Part shown: piece after piece, positions 11,635 to 15,147 of the stretch
How the letters are laid out: the number at the start of each line of letters is the position of its first letter
Position numbering within the stretch: the stretch's first letter is position 1
Assembly: GCA_017999835.1 (NCBI GenBank)
Contig: JAGNLA010000005.1
Location: 1 to 64,000 of the forward strand
Direction of reading: 5' to 3'
Length of the DNA stretch: 64,000 nt
Origin: Caldisericia bacterium
GTDB taxonomy: Bacteria; Caldisericota; Caldisericia; JAAYUI01
Notes under the pieces: generated by a model
Seen by the model: only the letters and a program-made list of their open reading frames with translations
What the model was told of the DNA's origin: nothing
Database searches by the model: none
Translations under genes and position numbers: made by a program

Positions 11635-12283
11635 TTCAATCATCGATTTCATCTATCCACCGGTTTGCCTTCGATGCGGTAAGCCCGGGAAACATCCGCT
11701 TTGCGCAAACTGCAGCCAGGATATGGTTCCAGATGTCAAATCGACTGCCGTATCAAACTTCAATCTCACAACAATCTATCCTTACCATGGAACAGGCAGG
11801 GACGTGATGCACCTGTTCAAGTTCGATGGTTACGATTGTTTTGCCAGGCCACTAGCTGAGGTCGCATCAAATTATATTTTTAATATGCAGCCAAGGGTTC
11901 TGGTTCCAGTTCCTGTTCACTTTCTGAGGATAAGACAACGGGGATTTAATCAGTCAGCGATGATTGGATGGCATATTGCAAAACTTTTGGGATGGAAATG
12001 CAATGGTCGATTGGTAAGACGTGCTAGAAACACAAAACCTCAGTTTAACCTTGACATCGATGAGAGAATGTCCAATATTGAAAACTCAATGGCACCATAT
12101 CCATTTGCAAAAATAAACCCTAAACAAAGATACATGATCATCGACGACATTGTCACCACAGGAGCGACTTTGGCGGAATGTGCCAGAGTGCTTCGAAAGA
12201 TGGGCGCAGTTCACATTGACGCACTAGCAATTTTTCATGCCGGCAGCAAGGAAACCATGCTCTCGGCAGTAATCAGGAGATGA
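11621..12283 (+). CDS. comF: ComF-family phosphoribosyltransferase-like protein
   Basis: A 220-residue protein. An N-terminal zinc-ribbon-like CLRCGKPGKHPLCANC is followed by a phosphoribosyltransferase fold whose PRPP loop reads YMIIDDIVTTGATLAEC near 166-182. PVPVHFLRIRQRGFNQSA is the conserved mid-region of ComF/GntX proteins. In naturally competent bacteria ComF helps import single-stranded DNA, but many organisms keep it without known competence. The start MGWADSIIDFIYPP overlaps the csaB end by 14 bases, and the stop overlaps the next gene by four. No other competence gene is close, except possibly the PilM-like gene at 19952. Confidence 0.88.
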   Translation: MGWADSIIDFIYPPVCLRCGKPGKHPLCANCSQDMVPDVKSTAVSNFNLTTIYPYHGTGRDVMHLFKFDGYDCFARPLAEVASNYIFNMQPRVLVPVPVHFLRIRQRGFNQSAMIGWHIAKLLGWKCNGRLVRRARNTKPQFNLDIDERMSNIENSMAPYPFAKINPKQRYMIIDDIVTTGATLAECARVLRKMGAVHIDALAIFHAGSKETMLSAVIRR

Positions 12284-12852
12284 AAATGACAAAAGACATG
12301 TTTGGGTTCCTCAAAGACATCAGAAAGCTTGCAGTGGTAGCCATGCTGATTGCTTTGGCTGTGATAATCAGGACATACGCTGTTATCACAATCCCGCCTT
12401 CGCTCAAAGTTGATTTTGGAGCCGTACCGTTAATCATGGCCGTTGGTATACTTTTTGGACCAATCGCTGGTGGCATTGCCGGCGCCGGAGTCGATTTGCT
12501 GTCATATTTTATCACCGCCGGTTCGCAGCCAGGTCCAATAAATCCGTTGATCACAATTGGTTTTGCAGTATACGGAATTATTGCCGGACTCTATTTCTTC
12601 AGGAAAACCGATAAAGTTTCACTGCTTTCAACTGAAATCGTTGTCGCAATAGCTTTTATTGCTGGTTTCCTGGCAATCACAGTTGGAATTGCAATTACCT
12701 TTGGTGCTAAAGACGCCACATTCATGCAAAATTTCTCTTACTGGCTTACTGTTAGGCTAATAAGCCTTGTCCACATTGTTTGGTACCTTGTCCTCACCCC
12801 TGCTCTCGTTGTGACCGGTGAAAAACTCATGGCAGACTGGCAGAGAAAATGA
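12280..12852 (+). CDS. ECF transporter substrate-binding (S) component, FolT-like
   Basis: A 190-residue integral membrane protein with about six hydrophobic segments. The VDFGAVPLIMAVGILFGPI and GAGVDLLSYF stretches are typical of the ECF_transporter S-component family and most like the folate-type FolT group. It would bind a vitamin or other micronutrient at the membrane and needs a shared EcfA-EcfA'-EcfT module, which is not in this window. Two ATGs, six bases apart, could start it; the first overlaps comF in an ATGA. Its own stop codon overlaps the ATG of the next, TGA-containing gene. The substrate is a guess from the family. Position beside metal-binding HMA proteins leaves a metal substrate open. 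Confidence 0.8.
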   Translation: MKMTKDMFGFLKDIRKLAVVAMLIALAVIIRTYAVITIPPSLKVDFGAVPLIMAVGILFGPIAGGIAGAGVDLLSYFITAGSQPGPINPLITIGFAVYGIIAGLYFFRKTDKVSLLSTEIVVAIAFIAGFLAITVGIAITFGAKDATFMQNFSYWLTVRLISLVHIVWYLVLTPALVVTGEKLMADWQRK

Positions 12853-13055
12853 CAATAAAGCTGTTCAATAAGGAATGGGCTTGACCGGCTTGCGCCCAGG
12901 AGGCAGCTGGCCCGGTTCGGGTCATTCCAGGAGTAAAAAAGGTTGTATTCGAGTTCAACATCATGGTTGTTGAGTTTGATGAAGAGATTGTAACCAGGGA
13001 AAGAATTCTGGAAACTGCAAGCAAAAACAGCTCCAGACAACCGGAGGTCGTATGA
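12849..13055 (+). CDS. Candidate selenocysteine-containing HMA metal-binding protein (in-frame TGA at 12882-12884)
   Basis: Conventional translation stops after 11 codons (MTIKLFNKEWA). Reading the TGA as selenocysteine gives a 68-residue protein continuing U-P-A-C-A-Q-E-A-A-G-P-V-R, then IPGVKKVVFEFN and VVEFDEEIVTRERILETA, a complete heavy-metal-associated (HMA) domain. The UPAC motif takes the place of the usual CxxC metal site. Residues 12 and 15 coincide without gaps with Cys12 and Cys15 of the HMA protein encoded next. The ATG overlaps the S-component stop in ATGA, and its final TGA overlaps the next ATG in ATGA, as elsewhere in this operon. A SECIS-like hairpin starts 23 bases after the TGA. 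Such a domain would bind soft metals such as copper, zinc or mercury in the cytoplasm. The alternative is a recent Cys-to-stop mutation. The selenocysteine machinery is not in the window. Confidence 0.7.
12908..12924 (+). promoter_or_regulatory. Candidate bacterial SECIS hairpin
   Basis: TGGCCCG pairs with CGGGTCA (7 bp, one G-U pair) around a GTT loop. The loop begins 30 bases after the TGA, and its first base is G. Both agree with the published bacterial SECIS rules of a G in the first two loop positions, a 4-16-bp upper stem and 16-37 bases from UGA to the loop. A second, less regular hairpin (12885-12920) can form directly after the TGA and competes with it. Confidence 0.55.
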
Positions 13056-13255
13056 CAGCCACAATCACCAGCAAAAGGATAATGTGCGGCGGATGCGCAG
13101 CAAACGTGACAAAAGCTCTCTCGAGCCTTGAAGGTGTCAAGTCTGTCAACGTGGACGTGCCAACCAAAACCGTGAGCGTTGAGTTTGACGACTCGATCAC
13201 AAACATTGCAACGCTCAGGGAAGCCATGGCAACAGCAGGCTACATGCCTGATTGA
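13052..13255 (+). CDS. HMA-domain copper-chaperone-like protein (CxxC form)
   Basis: A 67-residue single HMA domain of the CopZ/MerP type. The metal site is MCGGC (Cys12, Cys15), followed by VTKALSSLEGVKSVNVD and VSVEFDD, the normal beta-alpha-beta order. It lacks a signal peptide and so is probably a cytoplasmic metallochaperone. It overlaps the end of the TGA-containing HMA gene by four bases and ends the operon. No copper ATPase or CopY/CsoR regulator is nearby, so the metal and the acceptor protein are unknown. Confidence 0.88.
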   Translation: MTATITSKRIMCGGCAANVTKALSSLEGVKSVNVDVPTKTVSVEFDDSITNIATLREAMATAGYMPD

Positions 13256-14377: not shown

Positions 14378-14659
14378 GTGACCATACATCACGTTGACGG
14401 AAAGAATGTTGGCAAAATCTTTATATACACACTTAGCACCTGCATTTGGTGCAAAAAAACCAAACAGACCTTGGCAGACCTTGGCTACGCCTATGATTAT
14501 GTTGAGGTAGACAAACACGAAGGCGCCGAGGAGGACGAACTCATTGAAGAGCTGAAGAAGTTCAATCCAAGCTGTTCATTCCCGACAACAATTGTCAACG
14601 ACACTAAAGCAGTTATCGGCTTCCAGCCTGACAAAATTGTCAAGGAACTTGGTCTATGA
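14378..14659 (+). CDS. Glutaredoxin-family thiol-disulfide oxidoreductase
   Basis: A 93-residue thioredoxin-fold protein starting at GTG, selected because GGAGGTGA lies five bases ahead and the fold begins soon after. IFIYTLSTCIWCKKTKQ carries a CIWC dithiol active site. The cis-proline and glycine segments of glutaredoxins appear as SFPTTIVND and AVIGFQPDK. The stop overlaps the start of a ferredoxin-thioredoxin reductase catalytic subunit, so electrons probably come from ferredoxin through that protein rather than from glutathione. Confidence 0.88.
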   Translation: MTIHHVDGKNVGKIFIYTLSTCIWCKKTKQTLADLGYAYDYVEVDKHEGAEEDELIEELKKFNPSCSFPTTIVNDTKAVIGFQPDKIVKELGL

Positions 14660-15147
14660 GTCCAACACCTGAACAGGTTGACGAACTTTATCTAAGGCTT
14701 AAAAAAGAGGCTGAAGAAAATGGATACTTCATCAATCCCGATGTCGAATTTGCCAAGGCATTGGCTGAAAGTCTGTTAGTAAACACTGAACGTTATGGCT
14801 ACGCAGCCTGTCCATGCAGACTCGTAAGAGGCCCAAAAGAAGATAACACCGACATCATCTGCCCATGTGACTACAGGGATGACGACCTTGATGAGTTTGA
14901 CGCTTGTTTTTGCGCGCTGTACGTGAGCAAGGACATCGCACAAGGCAAAGCACAAGCACAATCGATACCCGACAGGAGAGCAACTGCAAAAAACAAACCA
15001 AACCAGTCTGGTGCTTCACTTTCAGGCAATCTGGCTTATCCCGTCTGGCGATGCAAGGTTTGCGGTTACCTGTGCGCCCGCGACAATCCACCAGGGGTTT
15101 GCCCGATTTGCAAGGCAACAAAAGATCGTTTTGAACGCTTCATTTAG
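14656..15147 (+). CDS. Ferredoxin-thioredoxin reductase catalytic subunit fused to a rubredoxin-like domain
   Basis: A 163-residue fusion. Residues about 50-95 carry the FTR beta-subunit pattern CPC...CPC...CFC, which holds a [4Fe-4S] cluster next to a redox disulfide and reduces thioredoxin-like proteins with ferredoxin electrons. After a ~30-residue polar linker the C-terminus has WRCKVCGYLCARDNPPGVCPICKATKDRFERF, a rubredoxin-like iron site with two CxxC pairs, like that of rubrerythrins. The ATGA overlap with the glutaredoxin gene implies a linear chain of ferredoxin, FTR and glutaredoxin, with the rubredoxin as a built-in electron entry point. Confidence 0.88.
   Translation: MSPTPEQVDELYLRLKKEAEENGYFINPDVEFAKALAESLLVNTERYGYAACPCRLVRGPKEDNTDIICPCDYRDDDLDEFDACFCALYVSKDIAQGKAQAQSIPDRRATAKNKPNQSGASLSGNLAYPVWRCKVCGYLCARDNPPGVCPICKATKDRFERFI

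Follow-up and report, generated by a model that had tools for sequence, protein, structure and literature searches.

The stretch of DNA analyzed here (the window) spans 64,000 nucleotides of the genome of a Caldisericia bacterium. At positions 12849-13055 it contains a short frame with a single in-frame TGA, and the question is whether this codon terminates translation or is read as selenocysteine (Sec). To judge from the sequence evidence, the locus is probably a real selenoprotein gene, encoding a small cytoplasmic CopZ/MerP-like HMA metal-binding protein with a UxxC site, in tandem with a cysteine-containing twin. An earlier note, drawn up from the nucleotide sequence, had proposed this candidate. 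Its observation is confirmed and its interpretation is supported.

With the TGA read as U, the product is MTIKLFNKEWA-U-PACAQEAAGPVRVIPGVKKVVFEFNIMVVEFDEEIVTRERILETASKNSSRQPEVV. The frame contains no lesion besides the TGA, which is the only one, stands at codon 12 and forms part of a UPAC motif. ATGA overlaps join the gene to its neighbors at both ends, the ECF gene upstream and the Cys-type HMA gene downstream. The limits of the frame, the single TGA, the motif and the two overlaps all agree with the earlier note. Both neighboring genes end in TGA, and for this reason an alternative genetic code with TGA as a sense codon throughout was rejected. The operon is not a metal operon, its upstream gene being the folate-family ECF S component. 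A GGAGG sequence resembling a Shine-Dalgarno motif lies immediately 5' of position 13052. Further along the window (14378-15147), a gene for a glutaredoxin-like protein (CIWC) overlaps one whose product joins a ferredoxin-thioredoxin reductase beta chain to a rubredoxin-like domain. The two proteins are Cys forms, and each belongs to a family with selenoprotein members.

Table 1. Features of the locus, with positions in the window.
Feature	Position	Strand	Basis
ECF transporter S component (folate family)	12280..12852	+	TIGR04518, 64.7 bits; ATGA overlap with the Sec gene
Predicted selenoprotein gene (stand-alone HMA domain, 68 residues, UxxC)	12849..13055	+	Translation with TGA = U, codon usage, alignments, fold model
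In-frame TGA, predicted Sec codon (residue 12)	12882..12884	+	Aligned with the first Cys of CxxC in HMA paralogues
Candidate bacterial SECIS hairpin, TGGCCCG-GTT-CGGGTCA	12908..12924	+	7-bp stem, GTT apical loop, constraints of the SECIS model
Cys twin, stand-alone HMA protein with CGGC site	13052..13255	+	Pfam HMA, 63.8 bits; ATGA overlap with the Sec gene

The coding character of the frame was assessed with a codon-usage score trained on the long genes of the window. The 68 codons score 0.198 per codon, which is close to the median of real gene pieces of the same length (0.223) and exceeds the 99th percentile of both shifted (0.076) and antisense (0.181) frames. The score is positive on either side of the TGA, 0.27 upstream and 0.18 downstream, in agreement with the earlier description of both flanks as coding-like.

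Over its full length the predicted protein can be aligned with its downstream neighbor and with that neighbor's counterparts in four relatives, and the TGA coincides with the first Cys of CxxC, as the earlier note had placed it. When U12 was masked as X, the similarity to the neighbor was equaled by 1 of 5000 shuffled sequences, and the similarity to the HMA protein of the relatives likewise by 1 of 5000. The homologues that carry a Cys opposite the TGA are paralogues, about 30% identical. Provided that the UGA is read as Sec, the ligand pair of the HMA domain, a CxxC at the start of helix 1, becomes UxxC. A random single-base nonsense change would fall on this first Cys in 1 of 23 ways.

Profile searches are less favorable. 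The Pfam HMA model (PF00403) gives the Sec protein 16 bits, under the curated cut-off of 24.8, which counts against the reading, and the match disappears once residue 12 is set to X. No NCBIfam model is matched above its cut-off. The closest profiles are those of CopZ copper chaperones (NF033794 and NF033795), with an E-value of 6e-4 and a score far under the curated cut-off. AlphaFold2 run with six sequences produced a β-α-β-β-α-β arrangement, the ferredoxin-like HMA fold, with a pLDDT of 83, for a model that leaned on the CxxC paralogues included in the alignment. The top matches of this model in a Foldseek comparison with the PDB are HMA7, MerP, PacS domains and CopZ-like domains. From the single sequence, with the paralogues left out, the model is poor (pLDDT 44), and this counts against the reading.

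The earlier note had made the candidate depend on selA, selB, selD and tRNA-Sec, and all four were found in the genome. The tRNA-Sec, which has a UCA anticodon (72.9 bits), SelB (322 bits), SelA (494 bits) and SelD (265 bits) all score above their family cut-offs. The organism's own SelD contains an in-frame TGA at the classical site (GCAG-U-ASK) and is encoded on the same contig as the Sec gene. On gene content, the organism makes selenocysteine. The Caldisericia family to which it belongs is represented by five genomes (L029, L044, L045, L046 and L047), and SelD with a single in-frame TGA occurs in each. SelA is present in 5 of the 49 genomes of the class Caldisericia, all within this family, and absent from the other 44. 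A Sec-decoding family inside Caldisericia is thus revealed. Formate dehydrogenase, the commonest selenoprotein, was not found in this genome at an E-value of 0.001.

The stem of the candidate SECIS hairpin starts 23 nt past the TGA, and its loop lies 30 nt past it. Its folding energy is -9.2 kcal/mol, and an alternative fold has a 5-nt loop, GGTTC. The published criteria for bacterial SECIS elements are a loop of 3-9 nt with a G in the first two positions, a stem of 4-16 bp, a distance of 16-37 nt from the UGA and a minimum free energy of -7.5 kcal/mol or lower (PMC13188914). The hairpin satisfies all four of these constraints, and the statement of the earlier note that a GTT-loop hairpin 30 bases past the TGA obeys the bacterial rules is therefore upheld. 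A hairpin that passes the energy cut-off follows 1.7% of the codons in the window's ordinary genes, and an equally stable one follows 0.75%; for GC-rich sequence windows the proportions are 3.2% and 1.3%. None of 171 Cys codons has an equally stable hairpin downstream. No hairpin of this kind is present in the Cys-type HMA genes (+1.3 and -5.1 kcal/mol), which indicates that the HMA protein sequence does not impose it. When the whole region of 48-64 nt was folded freely, it folded no better than dinucleotide shuffles (z of 0.3, 0.9 and -0.3). This counts against the reading, and what makes the hairpin notable is consequently its agreement with the SECIS constraints alone.

The selD genes offer a comparison within the family. 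In three of the four relatives, those in which the Sec codon could be located, the fourth locus not being read in register, this codon is followed by GGGGCC-GTC-GGCCCT, likewise a GC stem with a GUY triloop. The candidate hairpin resembles this GTC-loop hairpin. After the Sec codon of the genome's own SelD, the best hairpin has 7 bp, a CGGGT loop and an energy of -6.1 kcal/mol.

A blind scan was carried out over 143 kb of the genome (the window and four further stretches), covering 842 in-frame TGA junctions. Of these, 37 are coding-like on both sides. When these were ranked by SECIS hairpin, the codon 12 site came out on top, ahead of a probable antisense artefact, with the Sec codon of SelD in third place. 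A second TGA junction with a hairpin (L054, position 7045, minus strand) has a GTTC loop at a spacing of 14, in a frame that resembles an antisense artefact.

The search for orthologues yielded nothing in support. In the genomes of the class Caldisericia, including the four relatives, neither a Sec nor a Cys orthologue was found, only Cys paralogues. The 386 sampled genomes gave only Cys paralogues and chance matches. No orthologue came from a collection of genomes of 84,980 species searched with exact 8-residue seeds only, and none from viral contigs or plasmids. Each of these three results counts against the reading. A hit with a TGA (L051) was rejected as an orthologue, as it sits in unrelated sequence. 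Of the checks proposed in the earlier note, those carried out were mostly favorable; the exception is conservation, since the support that it had named, several genomes alternating between Sec and Cys with conserved hairpins, was not found.

When the genome collection was scanned with the upstream ECF protein, the same four relatives alone were recovered, all without the Sec gene. These members of the family are Caldisericia metagenome-assembled genomes. In each, the ECF gene directly overlaps the Cys-type HMA gene with no gene in between, which counts against the reading. Either this lineage has therefore gained the Sec gene or the other genus has lost it. The Cys-type HMA gene is conserved in synteny in all four relatives. 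The twin is 58% identical (39/67) to its counterpart there, whereas the Sec protein is about 30% identical both to the twin and to the HMA protein of the relatives. It follows that the Sec gene is an old or fast-evolving paralogue. The ECF S component itself shares 33-36% identity with the protein encoded at the syntenic position in the relatives, and it always adjoins the HMA gene cluster.

These observations also bear on other explanations of the locus. An old HMA duplicate may be decaying in tandem, a nonsense mutation having turned its first Cys codon into TGA so that translation stops after residue 11. Such decay would fit the lack of the gene in the four relatives, the fruitless search for orthologues, the divergence from the twin and the weak Pfam score. 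However, codon usage remains gene-like past the TGA in a frame free of other damage, and the TGA falls on the very residue where Sec makes most sense. Moreover, the SECIS-like hairpin stands at the right distance, is missing from the Cys paralogues and occurs in a genome equipped with the Sec machinery. Because of the TGA on the metal-binding Cys, the hairpin and the clean frame, decay is the less likely reading, and we consider it unlikely.

The sequence comes from a metagenome-assembled genome, and a sequencing or assembly error could have altered a true TGC, TGT or TGG, in which case the gene would be an ordinary Cys-type, or Trp-substituted, HMA gene. Yet the error would have to strike the metal-binding Cys and to coincide with a SECIS-like hairpin that Cys-type copies do not have, which makes this explanation quite improbable. 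It is more improbable still that 12849-13055 is no gene at all, being either a chance open stretch between the ECF and HMA genes or a leader peptide of 11 residues through which translation would be coupled to the HMA gene. The direct overlap of these two genes in the relatives and the GGAGG just ahead of the twin are in keeping with this idea. The codon bias, the HMA similarity that persists with the TGA masked and the ATGA overlaps at both ends speak so clearly for a gene that it is hardly credible.

If the gene encodes a selenoprotein, as we favor, UGA-12 would be decoded by SelB and tRNA-Sec with the aid of the downstream hairpin. With one selenolate and one thiolate as ligands, the product would coordinate a soft metal ion, for example Cu(I), Hg(II) or Cd(II), and would either hold the metal or hand it to a partner. 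Pfam detected only one other HMA domain in the genome, located N-terminally in a P-type ATPase encoded on contig C19; this ATPase is a possible partner. A fuller proposal is that a free cytoplasmic HMA metallochaperone with a mixed selenolate-thiolate site shares one operon with an all-Cys twin, the cell keeping selenium and sulfur versions of the carrier for different metals or redox states, and that it is the first such selenoprotein in Caldisericota. We consider this proposal, taken as a whole, about as likely as not. Selenoproteins are mostly regarded as redox enzymes. A small carrier with Sec as a metal ligand, beside its Cys twin in one operon, would form a natural pair with which to test the role of selenium in soft-metal binding and transfer.

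MerP is periplasmic and part of mer operons, whereas no mer gene is found among the neighbors of the Sec gene, the product of which begins directly with the HMA domain. A MerP-type mercuric transport selenoprotein appears in the list of the GOS survey (PMC2398784), in agreement with the mention of such proteins in the earlier note; it and the present protein are both HMA-type metal carriers with a predicted Sec. Known selenoproteins also include a metal-binding protein with UxxU and a UxxC cation-transporting ATPase (PMC13188914, Table 1 for the ATPase), and NCBIfam NF045683 describes a MerT/CopZ fusion selenoprotein. There is thus precedent for Sec in proteins that handle metals, HMA-type ones among them. 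A stand-alone chaperone-like UxxC protein in tandem with a CxxC twin is a new form, which may nevertheless have been described before. The UxxU family (UxxU_metal_bind, NCBIfam NF041115) is, like the Sec protein, a small stand-alone metal-binding selenoprotein. It has two Sec residues instead of UxxC, and the Sec protein does not match its model at E-values up to 1; the model matches the Cys twin weakly (29.4 bits). The cation-transporting ATPase shares UxxC and metal handling with the Sec protein but is a full P-type ATPase, where the Sec protein would be a free chaperone. The CopZ chaperones have the same size and fold and carry CxxC where the Sec protein has UxxC.
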